Of a DNA stretch of 64,000 nucleotides, positions 21,892 to 31,091 are shown piece after piece (position 1 is the first letter of the stretch; each line of letters begins with the position of its first letter). Source of the DNA: Streptomyces sp. ITFR-16 (GTDB lineage Bacteria > Actinomycetota > Actinomycetes > Streptomycetales > Streptomycetaceae); assembly GCF_031844705.1 (NCBI RefSeq), contig NZ_CP134609.1, positions 868,001-932,000 of the forward strand, in the 5' to 3' direction. A model generated the notes under the pieces. That model was not told where the DNA came from. It was given only the letters and a program-made list of their open reading frames with translations, and did no database searches. Both the position numbers and the translations under genes were made by a program.

Positions 21892-22902
21892 CTAGTGGCC
21901 CTTGTGCGCCTCCGTCTTCGCGGGCCCGTCCGGCGGTGTCGACGCCATCGTGTGACCGTCGTGCCCCGGTACGGTGCCGTCCGCCTTGGCGACCAGCAGC
22001 ATTCCGGCCATGCCCATGTCGGAGTGGCTCTGCACATGGCAGTGGTACATCCAGGCGCCCGCGCCCACGTGTTCGCCCGCGATGACCTGGAAGCCGAAGG
22101 AGTCCGCGGGCCCGACGATCTTCGTGTCGATGACCCTGGTCGGGTCGTCGGGCCCGGTGAGCAGGCCGGTGCGGTTGTCCGCCCAGCGATGACCGTGGAC
22201 ATGGAAGGTGTGGTAGTACTCGCCGTGCGTGATCATGACGACTTCCAGCCGGTCCCCCACCGTGGCCTCGAAGTCGGGGCTCTGGTCGGCGGGTTTGTTG
22301 TTGATCGTCATGTCGTTGAAGACGATCGTGATCGTCTTGTCCGGCAGGATGTCGCCCTGGCGCCGCACGATCAGCGGGCCGTACAGCCCCTTGCGGATGC
22401 CGCCCGTGCCGTGGTCCGTGCCGACGGTGTGGTCGTGGTAGTGCCAGTAGCCCGCGCTGCCGGGCTGCCAGGTCCCGTCCTTGCGCCGGCCCGGGGCATG
22501 GGTGCGCCAGGTGTACGTACGGGACTCGCCCGGTTCGACGATGCTCCGGTTCATCCGGGTGCCGTCGCTCGCGATGTCGTAGTCGACGCCGTGCGCGTGC
22601 AGGCTGGCCGCCACGTCCATCGTGTTCTCGAACTCGATGTGCAGCGTGTCGCCCTCGTTGATCTCGATGAGCGGTCCGGGGATCGAGGCCTTGCCCTTCT
22701 CCAGCCCGTAGCCCATCGAGCCGTCCGCCAGCTTCTCGGCGTACAGCTTGAGATGGCGCACCACCCCGCCGGCCGGAGCCGTACGCGGCGGGTTCTCCGC
22801 GGAGGTGGCCTCGATCGCGCCGAGGGACAACGATGTCACGCCCGTCGCGGCGACCACCCCGCCGCCCATCAGCACCCGCCGGTTGAAGCTCCTGCGATCC
22901 AT
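21892..22902 (-). CDS. Small two-domain laccase (multicopper oxidase, SLAC type)
   Basis: 336 residues, the two-domain length of Streptomyces small laccases (about 340) rather than the three-domain size. The N-terminus [18 protein letters not shown] is a Tat signal, so the enzyme is folded and loaded before export. All four copper motifs are intact: [25 protein letters not shown] and [14 protein letters not shown]. It oxidises phenols and other electron donors and reduces O2 to water, working as a trimer. The ATG at 22902 has GGGGAG at good spacing. It diverges from the ThuA/PQQ-dehydrogenase gene. From memory this corresponds to SCO6712 of S. coelicolor. Confidence 0.92.
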
Positions 22903-23083
22903 GTCGAACTCCCCACTGTGGGACGGATGTTGCGGAGAACGGGCCACACCGTAGCCCGGGGATCTTCGTTTATCCACACTAAGGACAAAGTTGGTGCCAT
23001 CCCTGCCATAGCTATTGGCGAGTCGCGAAAAGAGGTCTAGCTTCATGCGCTGTTGCAGTGACCAAAGAGGGGTGGGTGACCAC

Positions 23084-25576
23084 ATGCAGCGCACACCACA
23101 TCACAGGTCCAGATCGCGACGCGGACTTGCGGCGGCCCTGGCGGCCGGCGCACTGACCGCATCCCTGCTCGGCGGCAACGCCGCCAGTGCCAGGCCGGAC
23201 CCCGGCGCCCCGGGCGCCATGGCGACAACGTTGTCCCTGCCGTCGCCACCCGGCGGCGCCAACGTCAAGGTGCTCGTGTTCCACGCCTCCGCCACCGAGG
23301 AGTCCCCGACCGTCGACGCCGGAATCGCGGCGATCGAGAAGATCGGGCTCACCGGACCGGAGGCGGGACGTTTCAAGACCGTGGCGACCGACGACCCGGC
23401 GGTCTTCACCAACGGCAAGAAGCTCGGCACGTTCAACGCCGTCGTCTTCCTGACGGGCGGCGGGGATGTGCTCGACCCGGAGCAGGAGGCGGGTCTTGAG
23501 GCGTACATGGAGGCCGGGGGCGGATTCCTCGGCATCCATGACGCGGCCCGCACCGAGCCGTACTCGGACTGGTTCACCGGCCTGGTCGGTGCCCGTCCGG
23601 CGGCCGGCAGCCCCACCTCCGTCCAGCGCGCGACGGTCGAGATCGGCGACCGGCAGCACCCGGCGACCAAGAACCTCCCGCTGGAGTGGAAGCGCCCGGA
23701 CAAGTGGCTGAACTGGAAGGACAATCCCTCCGGGGACGTGCACACCGTGGCGCGCGTCCGGGAGATCACGTACAAGCCGGGTACGAGCGCCAACGGCTGG
23801 GACCACCCGGTCTCCTGGTGCCGCGACTACGACGGCGGCCGGTCCTTCTACACCGCGATGGGCGGTACGGTCGACAGCTTCGCCGAGGCCGACTTCCGGG
23901 ACCATCTGCGCGGCGCGCTCGACTGGACGACACGGATCTCGCAGGCCGACTGCAAGGCGACGATCACCTCCAACTACAAGGCGGAGCGCGTCACCCAGCC
24001 CAACCAGCCGGGCAGGAACGACCAGATCGGCGAGCCGCACGGGCTGGTGACCGCCCCCGACGGACGGGTGCTGTACATCGGCCGGGGCGGCGCCGACAGC
24101 AGTGTGCCGGTCGTCACCGACTGGAAGGACCCGAACGTCGGCAAGGGCCTGGGCCAGATCCACGTCTACGACCCGACGACCAGGAAGGTCACCCTCGCCG
24201 GTGAGCTGACCGTCTTCGGCAACAAGGGCGGCGGCGACGAACTGGTCAAGGTCGAGGAGGGGTTGCTCGGCATCGAGCTCGACCCGGACTTCGAGAAGAA
24301 CGGCTGGGTGTACCTGCACTACACACCCCATGACAAGATCGACCGCGACAAGCAGATGGCGGTCCGTCAGGTCTCCCGGTTCACCCTCGACCTGGCGACG
24401 AACAAGCTGGACCTCGCCTCCGAGAAGGTCCTGCTGCACTGGCCGGTCCAGATCCACAGCTGCTGCCACGCGGGCGGCGGCATGGCCTGGGACTCCAAGG
24501 GCAACCTGTACATCGCGGCCGGGGACAACAACTCCTCCGGATTCAGCGACGGTTACTCGGGCAACAACCCCGAGCCCAACTACAAGGGCGTTTCGTTCGC
24601 CGACGCCCGGCGCACCGCGGGCAACACCAACAACCTCAACGGCAAGATCCTGCGGATCCACCCCGAGGACGACGGCACCTACACCCTGCCCGATGGCAAC
24701 CTCTTCACCGGCAAGGAGACGGACGAGGGCGGCGGCAAGACCCGCGGCGAGATCTATGTGATGGGGGTGCGCAACCCGGCGAGGATCTCGATCGACAAGT
24801 CGACCGACACGCTGTACGCGGGCTGGGTCGGCCCCGACGCGGGCGAGCCCAGCACCACCTGGGGCCCGGCGAAGTACGACACGTTCGCCGCGATCACCAA
24901 GGCGGGCAACCACGGCTGGCCGTACTGCATGGGCAACAAGCAGCCCTACCGGGACCGCAACCTGCCCGACCCTGGTAAGCCGCTCGGCTGGTACGACTGC
25001 GACCACCCCAAGAACGAGTCGCCCAACAACGACGGCCTGGTGAACCTGCCGCCGATCACCTCCAACACCATCTGGTACTCGCCGCAGGGCGGTGGCGTGG
25101 ACTACCCGCGCGACGAGAACGGCATCCCGAGCTACAAGGTCGAGGACCAGAAGGAACTGCTGCCCTGGCTCAAGGGCGGCGGCCAGGCCACGATGAACGG
25201 CCCGGTCTACCGGTACGACGCGGCGAGCACCAGCGCCGACAAGTGGCCCTCGTACTGGGACGGCAAATGGTTCGTCGGTGACTTCTACGACGACACCCAG
25301 CCCCGGCACGCGGTGCTCACCGACCCGAAGACGGTCGGCAAGGGCGGCCTGCCCACCCATGCCGAGTCGCTGAAGGAGATCATCCCGGTCGGCGCGGACG
25401 GCATCCGCAACCTGATGGACTGGAAGTTCGCCCCGGACGGATCGCTGTACGTCCTGGACTACGGGCGCGGCTTCTTCACCTCCGACTCCAAGTCCGCCCT
25501 GTGGCGCGTGACGTACAAGGGCGGCGCACCGACCCCGGCCGTCAAGGACCTGGCCAGGAAGGCGGCAGTGAAGTGA
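23084..25576 (+). CDS. Secreted ThuA-like domain fused to PQQ-type sugar dehydrogenase
   Basis: 830 residues. A signal peptide with [22 protein letters not shown] (shown as SRRGLAAAL then AAGALTASL) is possibly Tat type. Residues about 60-290 are a ThuA-like class-I-glutamine-amidotransferase fold: [50 protein letters not shown]. Residues about 310-830 are a six-bladed quinoprotein glucose/sorbosone dehydrogenase-like propeller: [93 protein letters not shown]. The adjacent CysCys after HS is notable. ThuA proteins act on 3-keto sugars. Upstream GTG 23072 and ATG 23045 are alternative starts; AGAGGGG fits the ATG at 23084 best. It overlaps the next gene by four bases. Confidence 0.82.
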
Positions 25577-27810
25577 GACACCGTTCGATCTTCTTCCGCG
25601 GGCGCCACCGCCCCGCGCGGCTCTGGCTCGCGCTGCTGGGATCGTTCCTGATGGTGCTGGGGCTGACCTCGACGGCGGCGTACGGCCGTACGCCGGCCCC
25701 GGCGGACACGGCGGCCGACCAGGTGCTCACCTGGACGGCGGGCGACCCGATCGACCACTACCTCTCCGCGCCCGGTACGGCGGTGGCCGGCAAGGCGACC
25801 ATCGTCTTCGAGAACAGCGAGGCGACGGGGAACACCACCGGCATGCCGCACACGCTGACCTTCAGCGTCTCGGACCCGGAGTTCAACAACGACGTACCGC
25901 TGAACCTGCTGGCCAACCCGGGCGATGACAAGGGCGGCAAGCAGACGGCGGAGGTCACCCTCACCCCCGGCCGGTACTTCTACCACTGCACCATGCCGGG
26001 ACACGAGGCGATGCAGGGCATCCTGACCGTCACCGACGGGGGCGGCGGTGAGGACACCACCGCTCCCGAGACCTCGGCGAAGGTCGACGGCGACAAGAAC
26101 GCCGACGGTGCCTACGTCGGCCAGGCCACCGTCACCGTCGCGGCCACCGACGAGGGTTCGGGCGTCGACACCGTCGAGTACGCGGTCGGGGCGGACGGTG
26201 CCTGGCAGCCGTACACCGTGCCGGTCGTGGTGGACGAGGTCGGCGCGCACACCATCCGCTTCCGCGCCACCGACAAGGCGGGCAACGCCGCAGCCGAGAA
26301 GAAGGTGGACTTCACCGTCGCCGCCCCGCCGACGGACGACACCACGGCCCCGGAGACCTCGGCGACCGTGTCCGGGGAGAAGGACGACCAGGGGCAGTAC
26401 CTGGGCATGGCGACGGTCACCGTGACCGCGTCCGACACCGGCTCCGGCGTCAACACCATCGAGTACGCGCTCGGGGCGGACGGTGCCTGGCAGCCGTACA
26501 CCGGCCCCGTGATGGTGCACGAGGCCGGGGCGCACCAGGTGCGCTACCGCGCCACCGACAAGGCGGGCAACGCCGCAGCCGAGAAGAAGGTGGACTTCAC
26601 CGTCGTCGTGCCGCCGGCCGAGGACACGACGGCGCCGGAGACATCGGCGCGGGTCGAGGGCGACCGGAACTCGGACGGCGCCTTTCTCACCAGCGCCAAG
26701 GTGACGGTCGTCGCGACCGACGACGACTCGGGGGTGGACAAGGTCGAGTACTCCCTCGACGGCGGGCCCTACCTCGCCTACACCGCCGCGGTCCTCGTCG
26801 ACCGGGTCGGCTACCACACCGTCGACCACCGGGCGACGGACAAGGCGGGCAACACCTCCGGGGCCCAGCGCGTCTCGTTCACCGTCGCGCAGAGCGGCGG
26901 CGTCCCGGCGCCGAACTGCCCGGAGTTCGACGAACGGCGCACCGTCATCGTGGGCACCGTCGACACCGGGGTGCCCAACCGCATCACCGGCAACCGCTGC
27001 ACGATCAACGAGCTGATCGAGGACGAGAAGGACTGGTCGTCGCACGCGCTGTTCCTCAAGCACGTGGACAAGGTCCTCGACCAGCTCTTCGGCGCCGGGG
27101 TGATCGACGCCCGCGAACAGAAGAAGATCTACAAGGCGGCCAAGCAGTCGGGCATCGGCAAGCCGGGCCAGGACGAGGGCTACCGCAAGCTCTTCGACGG
27201 CACGCCCGCCTCGCTCGCCAAGTGGCAGCAGGTCGGCGGCGGGCAGTTCGCGCTGAACGAGGAGGAGGGCGCGATCACCAGCTCCACCACCGTGGACGGC
27301 ATGGGGATGCTGTGGTTCCCGGGCCGCCAGTACGGGGACTTCTCGCTGAAGCTCCAGTGGCGGGACGACGCGCCCGGCACGGGCAACGCCAACGGCGGGG
27401 TGTTCGTACGGTTCCCGAACGTCCACGACAACCCGGAGGAGCAGAACCCGGAGTGGGTCGCCATCAAGTACGGCCATGAGATCCAGATCAACGACCGGCC
27501 GGACGGCGACATGTACAAGACGGGTTCCGTCTACGGGTTCGACCGGGTGGGTCTCGCGGGTGCCGGGGTGACCCCCAAGGGCACCTGGAACGACTACGAG
27601 ATCCGGGTGGTGGACCAGCACTACTCGGTCTACCGCAACGGCGTCCTGCTCAACGAGTTCGACAACAACGGCGGCCAGCTCTTCGAGCCGCCGCGGGACG
27701 ACGACCCGGGCACCGACGGCCGGCGGTACGCCTCCGGCTACATCGGGCTCCAGGTCCACAGCACCTCGGACGTGATCTCCTACCGGGACATCCGTATCAA
27801 GGAGCTGTGA
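25573..27810 (+). CDS. Secreted cupredoxin / OmpL47-like repeats / DUF1080 protein
   Basis: 745 residues from a GTG that overlaps the upstream stop (GTGA), so it is translationally coupled. A Sec signal (LWLALLGSFLMVLGLTSTAA) is followed by a plastocyanin-like cupredoxin (about residues 45-155) with type-1 copper ligands His in MPHTLTF and Cys/His/Met in YFYHCTMPGHEAMQG. Three OmpL47-type Ig-like repeats follow (about 160-440), each with DTTAPETSA, a VEY strand and DKAGN. After a linker comes a C-terminal DUF1080 domain (about 535-745; YRKLFDGTPASLAKWQ, DFSLKLQWRD, NGGVFVRFPN, HEIQIND), now known in other bacteria as a 3-keto-disaccharide hydrolase/lyase fold. It probably works outside the cell with the ThuA/dehydrogenase protein. 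Confidence 0.82.
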   Translation: MRHRSIFFRGRHRPARLWLALLGSFLMVLGLTSTAAYGRTPAPADTAADQVLTWTAGDPIDHYLSAPGTAVAGKATIVFENSEATGNTTGMPHTLTFSVSDPEFNNDVPLNLLANPGDDKGGKQTAEVTLTPGRYFYHCTMPGHEAMQGILTVTDGGGGEDTTAPETSAKVDGDKNADGAYVGQATVTVAATDEGSGVDTVEYAVGADGAWQPYTVPVVVDEVGAHTIRFRATDKAGNAAAEKKVDFTVAAPPTDDTTAPETSATVSGEKDDQGQYLGMATVTVTASDTGSGVNTIEYALGADGAWQPYTGPVMVHEAGAHQVRYRATDKAGNAAAEKKVDFTVVVPPAEDTTAPETSARVEGDRNSDGAFLTSAKVTVVATDDDSGVDKVEYSLDGGPYLAYTAAVLVDRVGYHTVDHRATDKAGNTSGAQRVSFTVAQSGGVPAPNCPEFDERRTVIVGTVDTGVPNRITGNRCTINELIEDEKDWSSHALFLKHVDKVLDQLFGAGVIDAREQKKIYKAAKQSGIGKPGQDEGYRKLFDGTPASLAKWQQVGGGQFALNEEEGAITSSTTVDGMGMLWFPGRQYGDFSLKLQWRDDAPGTGNANGGVFVRFPNVHDNPEEQNPEWVAIKYGHEIQINDRPDGDMYKTGSVYGFDRVGLAGAGVTPKGTWNDYEIRVVDQHYSVYRNGVLLNEFDNNGGQLFEPPRDDDPGTDGRRYASGYIGLQVHSTSDVISYRDIRIKEL
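26187..26605 (+). repeat. Intragenic 285-bp tandem repeat (two copies)
   Basis: Two of the Ig-like repeats share long identical DNA tracts at a 285-bp offset: 59 bases at 26262-26320 equal 26547-26605, and about 30 bases around 26187-26217 recur at 26472-26502. The third repeat has diverged. This points to recent duplication or gene conversion. Confidence 0.7.
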
Positions 27811-27830: not shown

Positions 27831-28925
27831 TCAGCCGGCCGCGGCCGCATGCCGGTGCATGCGGTCGCGGCCTCCCGGGTGCCGGTGGCGCCACACCCAG
27901 AACACGGTGCACGAGACCAGCGACCAGGCCGCGAGCACCAGGAACGGGAAGACCTTCTGATAGCCCTGGTAGTAGACGGCAGTGTGCTGGGCGTTGACGG
28001 AGGCGCCCGGCGGCAGCCAGCGTCCGATGTGCCCGAGCAGCGAGGGCAGCAGCGGCCAGGACACCGCGCCGCCGGAGGACGGATTGCCCAGGAGCACCAT
28101 CACCCCCCAGGTCGGGAGCATGGCCCAGCGCCCCATGAGGGTGTTGAACATGGTGAAGACCATGCCCGAGGTGAACATCGTGAACGCCAGGATCAGCCAG
28201 GACTCGAAGAACGGCAGATCGACCGCGCCCAGCCACCAGTCGACGACGGCGGCGATGGCGAAGGCCCCGAGCAGCGCGTAGCCCACGGTGAACGCGATGC
28301 GCTCGGCCGGGATCAGCGAGCGGGCGTGCACGCTGAGCTGGATGGCGCCGACGAAGCCGATGATGACGGCGGCGAGCGAGATGTAGAAGAGCGCGAGTCC
28401 GCGCGGGTCGCCCTTCTGGAGCGGCTTGACGTCCGTGACCGCGACCGGGACATGGAGGGTGTCCCCCACCTTCACCGCCGATTCGGCGAGCAGCTGGGCG
28501 ACGGCGGCTCCGGACGCCCCGGCGACGTCCAGCGACACCCCGCGCGGGCCGGACCGGAAGATCGCGAAGACCTCCTGCTCCTCCAGGGCGTGGCGGGCCC
28601 GGGCGGGGGTCGCGAAGACATGGATGTCGAGCGAGGCGTCCAGGGCCTTGTCCATCGCGGCGACGAACTCCTTGCCGCGCGCGGTGTCCGGCTGGCTGAC
28701 CACGGCGGCCGGGATGCGGTGCGGGGTCGGGTTGGCCATGGCGTACGTGTAGGAGCCGGCGAAGAGCCCGGCGGCGGCCGCGAGGATGAACAGCAGGACG
28801 GTCGCCGAGAAGTAGGGGGACTCCTTGAACGCCGCCCACTTCGCGCCCCGGGCGGGCGGTCTGCCGTGCGCGCCGTGCGGTGCGCCGGGTCCGGGGTGAC
28901 CGGCTCCGGGGCCGGGCTCGGTCAT
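27831..28925 (-). CDS. DUF3533 / YhgE-Pip-like membrane protein
   Basis: 364 residues. One N-terminal membrane helix (about residues 38-60) is followed by an extracytoplasmic domain of about 140 residues (AAVVSQPDTARGKEFVAAMD, VFAIFRSGPRGVSLDVAGASG) and then five helices to the C-terminus, where WLILAFTMFTSGMVFTMFN and GNPSSGGAVSWPLLP (typical of the DUF3533/ABC-2-like group) are visible. The layout resembles YhgE/Pip and permease-like export proteins; its cargo is unknown. The start overlaps the stop of the polymerase-domain gene by four bases, so the two are co-translated although no functional link is obvious. The stop converges on the cupredoxin gene 20 bp away. Confidence 0.78.
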   Translation of the reverse strand: MTEPGPGAGHPGPGAPHGAHGRPPARGAKWAAFKESPYFSATVLLFILAAAAGLFAGSYTYAMANPTPHRIPAAVVSQPDTARGKEFVAAMDKALDASLDIHVFATPARARHALEEQEVFAIFRSGPRGVSLDVAGASGAAVAQLLAESAVKVGDTLHVPVAVTDVKPLQKGDPRGLALFYISLAAVIIGFVGAIQLSVHARSLIPAERIAFTVGYALLGAFAIAAVVDWWLGAVDLPFFESWLILAFTMFTSGMVFTMFNTLMGRWAMLPTWGVMVLLGNPSSGGAVSWPLLPSLLGHIGRWLPPGASVNAQHTAVYYQGYQKVFPFLVLAAWSLVSCTVFWVWRHRHPGGRDRMHRHAAAAG

Positions 28926-29953
28926 GCGTCCTCGTCCCCGTCGTGGCGGGCCCGGCTGGGCTGCACGCGCTTCGGCTCGCCCGGCATCTTCGGGTACTCC
29001 GGCGGGTACGGCAGGTCGCCGGGGCCGCCGTCGGCCCGGTGGCGGTCGGCGAGCTCCAGCAGCGAGTCGAGCCGGAAGGCCTCCTGGTCCATGTCCGCGT
29101 GCACATCGCCCTGTTCCGCGTAGCGCACGGGCATGGTCCGGATGTCGAAGTCGCGGGGTTCGGCGTCCTCGATCTCCTCCCAGCGCAGCGGGGCGGAGAC
29201 CGGGGCGTGCGGGAAGGGGCGCACCGAGTAGGCGGAGGCGATCGTGCGGTCCCGGGCGGTCTGGTTGTAGTCGACGAAGATCCGCTCGCCGCGCTCCTCC
29301 TTCCACCAGGCGGTGGTCACCCGGTCGGGCATCCGGCTCTCCAGCTCGCGCCCCACCGCGATGGCGGCCCGCCGGACCTCGGTGAAGGTCCAGCGCGCCT
29401 CGATGGGGACGAAGACATGGATGCCCCGGCCGCCGGAGGTCTTGGGCCAGCCGCGCAGCCCGTGCTCCTCCAGGACGGAGCGCAGTTCGAGGGCGGCCCG
29501 TACGGCGTCGGCGTAGTCGGTGCCGGGCTGCGGGTCGAGGTCGATGCGCAGTTCGTCGGGGTGCTCGGTGTCCCCGCCGCGCACCGGCCACGGGTGGAAG
29601 GTGAGCGTGCCGAGGTTGGCCGCCCAGATGACGGCGGCGACCTCGGTGGGGCACATCTCCCGGGCGCTGCGGCCGCTCGGGAAGGCGATCTCGGCGGTGG
29701 GGATCCATTCGGGGAGGTTCTTGGGCGCGCGCTTCTGGTAGAAGAACTCCCCCTCCACGCCGTCCACGAAGCGCTGGAGGGTGGTGGGCCGGTTGCGCAG
29801 GGCGCGGAGGATCCCGGGGCCCACGGCCAGGAAGTACTCGGCCACGTCCCTCTTGGTGTACCCCTTCTCCGGGAAGTAGATCTTGTCCGGATGGGACAGC
29901 CGTACCGCCCGTCCGGCCGCTTCCAGCTCCACCGCATTGCCCGCTGCTGCCAT
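28922..29953 (-). CDS. LigD-type NHEJ polymerase/primase domain protein
   Basis: 343 residues: a stand-alone archaeo-eukaryotic-primase-like polymerase domain as found in bacterial non-homologous end joining. Hallmarks are VRLSHPDKIYFPEKGYTKRD, the catalytic Asp pair in LRIDLDPQPGTDY, KTSGGRGIHVFVP and ERIFVDYNQTARDRTIASAYSVRP (as ERIFVDYNQTARD / IASAYSVRP). It adds nucleotides, preferably ribonucleotides, at broken DNA ends held by Ku. The ATG at 29951-29953 begins just before VELEAAGRAVRLSHPDK. It diverges from the ATP-dependent ligase 76 bp away; together they do what the fused LigD does in mycobacteria. Ku is not in the window. Confidence 0.9.
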   Translation of the reverse strand: MAAAGNAVELEAAGRAVRLSHPDKIYFPEKGYTKRDVAEYFLAVGPGILRALRNRPTTLQRFVDGVEGEFFYQKRAPKNLPEWIPTAEIAFPSGRSAREMCPTEVAAVIWAANLGTLTFHPWPVRGGDTEHPDELRIDLDPQPGTDYADAVRAALELRSVLEEHGLRGWPKTSGGRGIHVFVPIEARWTFTEVRRAAIAVGRELESRMPDRVTTAWWKEERGERIFVDYNQTARDRTIASAYSVRPFPHAPVSAPLRWEEIEDAEPRDFDIRTMPVRYAEQGDVHADMDQEAFRLDSLLELADRHRADGGPGDLPYPPEYPKMPGEPKRVQPSRARHDGDEDA

Positions 29954-30029
29954 GTCGGACACGGTAGGCCGGGCACACATATGCCGCATATCGGAGGACT
30001 CCGGTCGCCGTACGGTCCACAATCGGGGC

Positions 30030-31091
30030 ATGGACCTGCCGGTGATGCCGCCCGTGAAGCCGATGCTCGCCAAGTCCGTGAAGCGGATCCCGCCGGGCAT
30101 GCAGTACGAGGCCAAATGGGACGGCTTCCGGGCGATCGTGCACCGGGACGGCGACGAGGTGGTCATCGGCAGCCGCACCGGCAAACCCCTCACCCGCTAC
30201 TTCCCCGAGCTGGTCGCAGCGTTCCGGGAGAACCTTCCGCCGCGCTGCGTGGTGGACGGCGAGATCGTGATCGCGTACGACGGGCGGCTCGACTTCGACC
30301 GGCTCAGTGAGCGCATCCACCCGGCCGACTCGCGGGTCCGGATGCTGGCCGGGCAGACGCCGGCCTCCCTCATCGCCTTCGACCTCCTCGCGCTCGGCGA
30401 CGACTCACTGATGGACACCCCGCAGGCGGACCGGCGCAGGGTGCTCGAGGCGGCGCTCGCCGACGCCGCGCCGCCCGTGCGTCTGGCGCCCGCGACCACC
30501 GACCCGGCCGAGGCGCGGGAGTGGTTCGAACGGTACGAGGGGGCCGGGCTCGACGGCGTCGTCGCCAAACCCCTCGATCTTCCCTACCGGCCGGACACCC
30601 GGGCGATGTACAAGATCAAGCACGAGCGGACCGCCGACTGCGTCGTGGCCGGATACCGCTTCCACAAGAGCGGCCCGGTCGTCGGCTCGCTGCTGCTCGG
30701 CCTGTACGACTCCGGGGGCGCGCTCCAGCACGTCGGGGTGTGCGCGGCCTTCCCGATGAAGCGCCGCGCGGAACTCGTCACCGAGCTCGAACCCCTGCTC
30801 ACCGACATCGCCGACCATCCCTGGGGTGCCTGGGCGGACGCCGAGGCGCACGCGGGCGCGCGACTGCCCGGGGCCCCGAGCCGCTGGTCCGGGAAGAAGG
30901 ACCTGTCCTGGGTGGCGGTGCGTCCGGAGCGGGTCTGCGAGGTGGCGTACGACCACATGGAGGGCGACCGCTTCCGCCACACGGCCCAGTTCCGCCGCTG
31001 GCGGCCGGACCGGACCCCTGTCGGCTGCACGTACACGCAGCTGGAGGAGGTCGTGCGCTACGACCTGGCCGATGTGTTGTCCGGCGGCTGA
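30030..31091 (+). CDS. ligC: ATP-dependent DNA ligase (LigC/LigD-ligase type)
   Basis: 353 residues. Nucleotidyltransferase motif I EAKWDGFRAI carries the lysine that takes AMP. RTGKPLTRYFPEL, VVDGEIVIA (motif III), FDLLALGD (IIIa), LDGVVAKPLDLPYRPD (IV) and MYKIKHERTADCVVAG (V) follow, then an OB-fold with PERVCEVAYDHMEGDRFRHTAQFRRW (as PERVCEVAYDHMEG / FRHTAQFRRW). It seals nicks in DNA ends repaired by the divergent polymerase-domain protein. The ATG at 30030 sits 76 bp from that gene's start. From memory the pair corresponds to SCO6707 and SCO6709 of S. coelicolor. Confidence 0.9.
   Translation: MDLPVMPPVKPMLAKSVKRIPPGMQYEAKWDGFRAIVHRDGDEVVIGSRTGKPLTRYFPELVAAFRENLPPRCVVDGEIVIAYDGRLDFDRLSERIHPADSRVRMLAGQTPASLIAFDLLALGDDSLMDTPQADRRRVLEAALADAAPPVRLAPATTDPAEAREWFERYEGAGLDGVVAKPLDLPYRPDTRAMYKIKHERTADCVVAGYRFHKSGPVVGSLLLGLYDSGGALQHVGVCAAFPMKRRAELVTELEPLLTDIADHPWGAWADAEAHAGARLPGAPSRWSGKKDLSWVAVRPERVCEVAYDHMEGDRFRHTAQFRRWRPDRTPVGCTYTQLEEVVRYDLADVLSGG

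Follow-up and report, generated by a model that had tools for sequence, protein, structure and literature searches.

Conserved neighbours of a Streptomyces small laccase suggest joint extracellular oxidation and breakage of sugar compounds with oxygen

We analysed a stretch of 64,000 nucleotides (C1:868001-932000), hereafter the window, from the 8.1 Mb genome of Streptomyces sp. ITFR-16 (G000), in which a small laccase gene on the minus strand diverges from two coupled genes on the plus strand. The first of these encodes a ThuA domain joined to a GSDH β-propeller (ThuA-GSDH), the second a cupredoxin joined to a DUF1080 domain (cupredoxin-DUF1080). The conservation of these neighbours suggests that their products jointly oxidise and break sugar compounds outside the cell with oxygen. 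An original prediction, made from the window alone, had described the divergent layout and the fusion of a type-1 copper protein with a 3-keto-sugar hydrolase-like domain. The layout was borne out by the coordinates of the open reading frames (ORFs) and by the overlap of the GTG start of the cupredoxin-DUF1080 gene with the TGA stop of the ThuA-GSDH gene (GTGA). The fusion is present as well, with three OmpL47 repeats and a small domain between its two parts (Table 1).

Genes and features of the locus

Pfam and NCBIfam matches of the three proteins comprised two laccase domains, ThuA, GSDH, 3keto-disac_hyd and the three OmpL47 repeats. The names given to the set in a public record are 'multicopper oxidase domain-containing protein', 'ThuA domain-containing protein' and 'family 16 glycoside hydrolase'.

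The laccase gene runs from an ATG at 22902, and a longer ORF reaching to 23094 is not needed for the start. The N-terminus MDRRSFNRR holds a twin-arginine motif. The best PDB match was the small laccase of S. coelicolor, 3cg8 (E 2.5e-170, residues 65-384), and the His, Cys and Met copper motifs are present, including HCHVQSH..M. By its full-length match and ligand motifs the protein is a two-domain laccase of the SLAC type with predicted O2-reducing phenol oxidase activity. The small laccases of Streptomyces account for many PDB entries among the structure matches and have a long applied literature; the available part of a review calls their roles speculated (PMC7036934).

Table 1. Features of the laccase/ThuA-GSDH/cupredoxin locus, in window coordinates
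Feature	Position	Strand	Evidence
Two-domain (small) laccase, SLAC family, twin-arginine signal	21892..22902	-	3cg8 match, copper motifs
Conserved 24-bp block in the divergent promoter region; imperfect dyad TTTATCC-N7-GGACAAA	22969..22992		alignment of loci
ThuA domain and GSDH β-propeller, predicted secreted	23084..25576	+	Pfam, fold; alternative start 23045
ThuA domain	23267..23929	+	Pfam (residues 85-305 of the ORF from 23015); 4jqs Z 23.5, rmsd 2.8, 226 aligned
Cys-Cys-His of the propeller; His corresponds to sGDH H144, second Cys to D143	24461..24469	+	profile alignment; invariant in 47/47
Arg-Asn, corresponding to sGDH R228-N229	24770..24775	+	profile alignment, invariance
Gly-Pro, corresponding to sGDH G247-P248	24863..24868	+	profile alignment, invariance
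Cupredoxin, three OmpL47 repeats, unnamed domain and DUF1080, predicted secreted	25573..27810	+	Pfam, ORF
Type-1 copper domain	25681..26046	+	ligands His 25849-25851, Cys 25987-25989, His 26002-26004, Met 26011-26013
Small unnamed domain (ORF residues 469-556)	26905..27168	+	also in ThuA-GSDH-DUF1080 chains
DUF1080 / 3-keto-disaccharide hydrolase-like domain	27169..27807	+	Pfam; 8rr2 Z 18.6, rmsd 2.8, 196 aligned

ThuA-GSDH matched the Pfam families ThuA (2e-58) and GSDH (1.8e-24). Its start is probably the ATG at 23084 rather than that at 23045, because an ATG is conserved at the former position in 30 of 52 aligned sequences (GTG in 3, a gap in 16), while ATG 23045 is kept in 3 of 52. The AlphaFold2 model had a predicted local distance difference test score (pLDDT) of 83.9 and a predicted template modelling score (pTM) of 0.87. 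The ThuA profile covers the whole domain, with a fold match to 4jqs. The GSDH part of the model matched the PQQ (pyrroloquinoline quinone) sugar dehydrogenase fold of 3a9g with Z 33.5 and a root mean square deviation (rmsd) of 2.5 over 335 aligned residues, and 3das, by its title a PQQ-bound enzyme of S. coelicolor, with Z 30.8 and an rmsd of 2.7 over 323 residues.

In cupredoxin-DUF1080 Pfam recognised 3keto-disac_hyd (3.5e-33) besides the OmpL47 repeats. Because the match to Copper-bind fell below its cut-off (18.5 against 21.2 bits), a profile of the cupredoxin family was built. It matched auracyanin A (2.6e-6), the cupredoxin domain of the nitrite reductase 2dv6 (6.6e-6) and plastocyanin (4.1e-5), and also rusticyanin and azurin. 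The copper ligands, which the original prediction had presupposed, are in place: His, Cys, His and Met are invariant in 33/33 and 24/24 sequences of two alignments. The arrangement of the domains in the model of the whole chain is unreliable (pTM 0.44). Among DUF1080 structures the model of this domain matched the 3-keto-glycoside eliminase/hydratase 8rr2 and BT2157 (3osd, Z 18.4), and across twenty sequences E104, Q106, Y122, N157-G158 and a G-L-Q-x-H motif are kept. On the strength of this fold and of the family-conserved residues, cleavage or hydration of a 3-keto-glycoside is predicted.

The 88-residue domain that adjoins DUF1080 had no Pfam match at E 0.01 and one plasmid match, which itself lies inside a cluster of the same type. 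It also ends cupredoxin-OmpL47 chains of other actinobacteria.

Co-inheritance of the three genes

The same 150 genomes of the genus, which are not independent of each other, were searched with each of the three proteins. An orthologue of ThuA-GSDH (at least 67% identity; next listed group at most 47%) was found in 92 of them. The original prediction had called for a survey of co-occurrence and had held that a laccase always separate from the other two would speak against it. The laccase proved to be an adjacent gene of divergent orientation in 91 of the 92 genomes, and the copper gene an adjacent one on the same strand, likewise in 91. Both exceptions lie at contig ends, one without a laccase (G073) and one with the copper gene on another contig (G120). 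Laccases matching at E 1e-60 or better occurred in 95/150 genomes, and a 2x2 table of laccase versus ThuA-GSDH (91, 1, 4, 54) gave p 9e-35, with kinship within the genus ignored. The search with cupredoxin-DUF1080 matched 93 genomes, the 93rd by a fragment in G048.

A wider survey covered 246 genomes of the class with a proximity threshold of 10 kb. Outside the genus, ThuA-GSDH orthologues of 56-59% identity were found in 22 genomes; the laccase was within the threshold in 22/22 and the cupredoxin in 19/22. Of the remaining three genomes, G210 and G224 hold a cupredoxin gene that is more divergent (43% identity) and truncated where the contig ends, while the cupredoxin of G305 stands at the beginning of a different contig.

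Named genomes were scanned as well, and the best 80 of 388 relatives analysed; this extended the picture to Streptomyces, Micromonospora, Streptosporangium, Jiangella, Promicromonospora, Virgisporangium, Georgenia, Cellulosimicrobium, Saccharomonospora, Amycolatopsis and others; one locus belongs to a named S. griseus (L155). A laccase was present in 78 and a cupredoxin in 75 of these loci, and three of those without cupredoxin end with their contig (L112, L117, L136). The laccase was divergent in 51, collinear upstream in 18 and downstream in 2, and the copper gene preceded the laccase in 7; in two of these 7 only the later domains of the copper gene are visible, where the contig begins.

Domain order varies too. 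DUF1080 comes after ThuA-GSDH in 27/80 named loci, any cupredoxin there being encoded by a gene of its own. Among other loci with called ORFs, 11 have ThuA-GSDH-DUF1080 as one chain of 1345-1417 residues. These fusions tie the three domains to one process and strengthen the connection that the original prediction had drawn between them. A paralogue in the source genome carries the three domains in the order GSDH-ThuA-DUF1080 in a single chain of 1241 residues. It belongs to one of two further ThuA/GSDH systems of that genome, which lie at C1:999776-1002610 (L109:4225-7950) and C1:5629050-5631997 (L003, L004). G120 has an extra ThuA-DUF1080 gene of 579 residues as the second gene beyond its laccase (L084:129-1868).

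As a control we used 99 listed places, in 59 genomes, that hold GSDH paralogues of 38-48% identity. One was within 10 kb of a laccase, and this one lies 8 kb from the cluster itself (G304); none, in or outside the genus, was within 10 kb of such a cupredoxin. Thus, among the places listed, laccase and cupredoxin go with this GSDH subfamily only. Together with the counts in and outside the genus this control rules out chance neighbours as an explanation.

Pairwise identities of laccase, GSDH and cupredoxin correlated over 74 loci with r 0.80-0.85, as species relatedness alone would also produce. Given this correlation, a single recent transfer as the sole cause is unsupported. One locus, L111 of Streptomyces sp. 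RB17, has the look of a mosaic in which pieces of separate origin were rejoined. Judged by pairwise identity, the closest loci for its GSDH chain are L135 and L110, of Dactylosporangium and Planosporangium (84-85%). For its cupredoxin they are Streptomyces loci (76%), and for its laccase a Streptomyces locus (75%) followed by one of Streptosporangium (73%). Taken together the three genes are a real unit, kept despite changes in gene order and domain fusion.

The proposed route and the propeller

For the activity, substrate, cofactor and electron route of the cluster we infer, tentatively and with a probability somewhat short of even, a secreted unit for the oxidation of sugars or glycosides. 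The GSDH propeller would oxidise a hydroxyl of an extracellular sugar or glycoside with a quinone-type cofactor, which most hosts would take up ready-made. The keto-product, a 3-keto-glycoside, would then undergo elimination or hydration by DUF1080 with the help of ThuA. Electrons would travel through the cupredoxin to the type-1 copper of the laccase, and this two-domain enzyme would reduce O2 to water.

Support for the first step comes from the pocket of the propeller. In a profile alignment to 1c9u five of the seven readable residues of sGDH are kept, namely H144, R228, N229, G247 and P248, which we take to be the catalytic His, the Arg-Asn pair and the Gly-Pro of the Ca2+ site. These positions and the Cys-Cys preceding the His are kept in 47/47 sequences. 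The Cys-Cys also occurs in two aligned paralogues of the source genome, so that the pair is not specific to the cluster.

A number of observations weigh against this reading. The two other readable pocket residues are replaced, Q76 by Glu and D143 by Cys, and the C-terminal PQQ contacts lie outside the aligned part of the seven-residue comparison; we assume that Q76 and C-terminal basic residues of sGDH contact PQQ. In the source genome PqqC (TIGR02111) had no match and PqqE none over the cut-off. Within the genus PqqC was patchy, exceeding the cut-off in 32/150 genomes with three more weak matches, and it did so in 18/92 genomes with the cluster versus 14/58 without, hence not in 74/92. Outside the genus it was found in 0/23 genomes (the 22 with the cluster and G165), in a search that gave no match even in controls, with a model that did match within the genus. 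We know of no PQQ enzyme that makes 3-keto sugars, and the GSDH relatives known to us oxidise at C1. As to DUF1080, the fold matches continue with a CBM66 module (Z 15.4) and lectins (Z about 14), so that the domain might only bind sugar rather than cleave it. Partners are also missing in places. Laccases without them occur at six places, namely in G058, G116 and G147, as a second copy in G144 (C31), and at G165:C15 and G176:C3. Named loci lack the laccase (L131, L178) or the cupredoxin (L119, L131). An eroded cluster in G048 (L079, G048:C83) retains the 3' part of the laccase beside a remnant of the copper gene, its last 129 codons, and has no ThuA-GSDH orthologue.

PQQ supply showed no association with the cluster (Fisher p 0.54) and was rejected as its predictor. 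Of the PQQ dehydrogenase claimed in the original prediction, the fold and most of the readable pocket thus stand, while the cofactor is called into question by the results on PqqC and PqqE. From these results it would follow that PQQ is taken up, or that another cofactor is used, or that the domain is not redox-active.

The last of these possibilities has a structural counterpart. The hedgehog-interacting protein (HHIP), which is presumably non-enzymatic, shares the fold of the GSDH model (Z 26.4), and therefore the fold alone is no proof of an enzyme. Like HHIP, the propeller could be a sugar-binding scaffold, with redox chemistry carried out only by laccase and cupredoxin on polysaccharide-bound phenol, in keeping with a PqqC that was not found in most hosts. 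Yet the His, Arg-Asn and Gly-Pro positions, kept in 47/47, speak against a scaffold. Moreover, Asd of E. coli is by its PDB title a soluble aldose sugar dehydrogenase, though E. coli is not known to make PQQ. We consider the scaffold improbable.

Electron route, known systems and the intergenic block

The pairing of cupredoxin and laccase is also seen where the sugar proteins are missing. In genus g17 laccase genes stand with a cupredoxin-OmpL47 gene, and with no ThuA, GSDH or DUF1080 among the matches, at G232:C1, at G282:C54 (judged from match coordinates only) and at G165:C34, where the cupredoxin lies at the contig start. G165 has no ThuA-GSDH orthologue among the matches listed. A search of 396 genomes of the phylum for cupredoxins of this kind outside the cluster gave a match in 17. 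All 8 matches of at least 182 bits came from genomes of the own genus; no other match exceeded 45 bits. It gave no match from the cluster families f17, f19 and f28, whose presence in the sample is not established.

Such pairs would also be expected of a cupredoxin that stores copper or delivers it to the laccase and carries no electrons. The full, invariant His-Cys-His-Met site of the type-1 kind argues against this role. So does the family profile, among whose matches are the electron carriers auracyanin, plastocyanin, rusticyanin and azurin, and the role seems to us quite improbable.

For a cupredoxin that hands electrons to the laccase, nitrite reductases with an extra cupredoxin domain are likely a precedent by analogy. 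A similar carrier role is ascribed to the fused cupredoxin of three-domain copper nitrite reductases, and small laccases have reportedly been linked to nitrite reductases. By profile match and domain layout, the nitrite reductases 2dv6 and 6tfd likewise pair a cupredoxin with a two-domain copper enzyme. There, however, a single chain holds both and the substrate is nitrite; here the cupredoxin belongs to a protein of its own, with a laccase for its partner. Carried further, the pairing could point to a membrane-free, fully secreted electron chain of actinobacteria, which would take electrons from extracellular glycosides by way of a ThuA-fused propeller with an altered redox centre and a dedicated cupredoxin to a laccase whose physiological donor is a protein and not a phenol. 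This we regard as doubtful. The altered centre would comprise the invariant Cys-Cys beside the catalytic His, perhaps a vicinal disulfide, and a cofactor that need not be PQQ.

The main rival to electron transfer from the cupredoxin, unlikely in our view, is that the laccase is not the terminal oxidase for it and instead oxidises phenols that the dehydrogenase and DUF1080 free from aryl glycosides or lignin-carbohydrate bonds, or makes quinone acceptors for the dehydrogenase. In the available parts of the papers concerned, a silA laccase mutant of S. ipomoeae solubilised less straw lignin (33 vs 113 mg/g) and respired less on straw (PMC5675413), and SLAC oxidised 12 of 23 phenolics (PMC3918160). 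C3 oxidation of a phenolic glucoside with β-elimination is a known route (PMC10628242), and quinone-reducing sugar oxidoreductases are reviewed for the breakdown of plant biomass (PMC13353379), again as far as the available text of these papers goes. What phenol oxidation leaves unexplained is the type-1 cupredoxin beside laccases that have no sugar proteins.

The components of the cluster resemble several known systems. Its laccase resembles Streptomyces SLAC, as the match to 3cg8 shows, but SLAC, EpoA and SilA, the latter two presumably of the same family, were, in the literature found, studied as stand-alone phenol oxidases, whereas the cluster laccase has ThuA-GSDH and cupredoxin as partners. 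The propeller shares the fold and the kept pocket residues with PQQ dehydrogenases of the GSDH fold (sGDH, Asd, the S. coelicolor Adh 3das; AA12); it differs from them in its fusion to ThuA, the invariant Cys-Cys before the His, the Glu in place of Q76 and hosts in most of which PqqC was not found. DUF1080 has the fold and the family-conserved positions in common with the Caulobacter system of LacABC and DUF1080, the Agrobacterium dehydrogenase with its eliminase and Bacteroides BT2157. For Caulobacter, sugar oxidation followed by cleavage of the keto-sugar was proposed to occur in the periplasm, according to the available part of the paper (PMC9007349). The dehydrogenases of these 3-keto-glycoside pathways are different ones, a flavoenzyme (PMC10628242) and the membrane-bound LacABC (PMC9007349), and the parts of the two papers at hand mention neither laccase nor cupredoxin.

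Among the literature matches listed, all from open-licence papers, no description of a ThuA-GSDH/cupredoxin/laccase cluster was found, and SCO6713 and SCO6714 had no match; by their titles, those for ThuA and laccase are about mycotoxins, food and shrimp, besides a genome study of one Stenotrophomonas. The parts are known, while the fixed set and the link through a cupredoxin are, within the reach of these searches, undescribed. A partner set kept across the surveyed actinobacteria permits a direct genetic and biochemical test of the role of small laccases. If the electron route holds, the natural donor of small laccases would be a blue-copper protein, and these laccases would be part of an extracellular sugar-oxidising system, with a bearing on the actinobacterial breakdown of plant glycosides and lignin-carbohydrate material.

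Of 52 named loci of the Streptomyces type, 48 have the 24-bp block between the divergent genes with no more than 3 mismatches, and it is a single copy in the source genome at up to 3 mismatches. Weaker versions, which are suggestive but prove nothing, were seen in L111 (3 mismatches), L078 (4) and L088 (7), where they separate laccase and cupredoxin, and in L072 (5) and L071 (6), where they separate laccase and ThuA-GSDH. The block does not mark every cluster, for seven collinear loci of other genera (L110, L113, L115, L116, L118, L120, L188) have it at 8-10 mismatches only, as have the laccase-only loci L080, L081, L082 and L107. No sigma-70-like site was found in 22880-23100. A DasR box at GGTCTAG near 23036 was considered and dropped, as it matches only half of that box.

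At two of the laccase-only loci (G116:C268, G147:C59; L081, L082) the neighbouring gene families are the same as at the usual place of the cluster. In the window a gene with a LigD primase-polymerase domain (28922-30193) adjoins the cluster, and its gene family, c3, recurs in 14 gene-called sources; this probably reflects shared synteny only.

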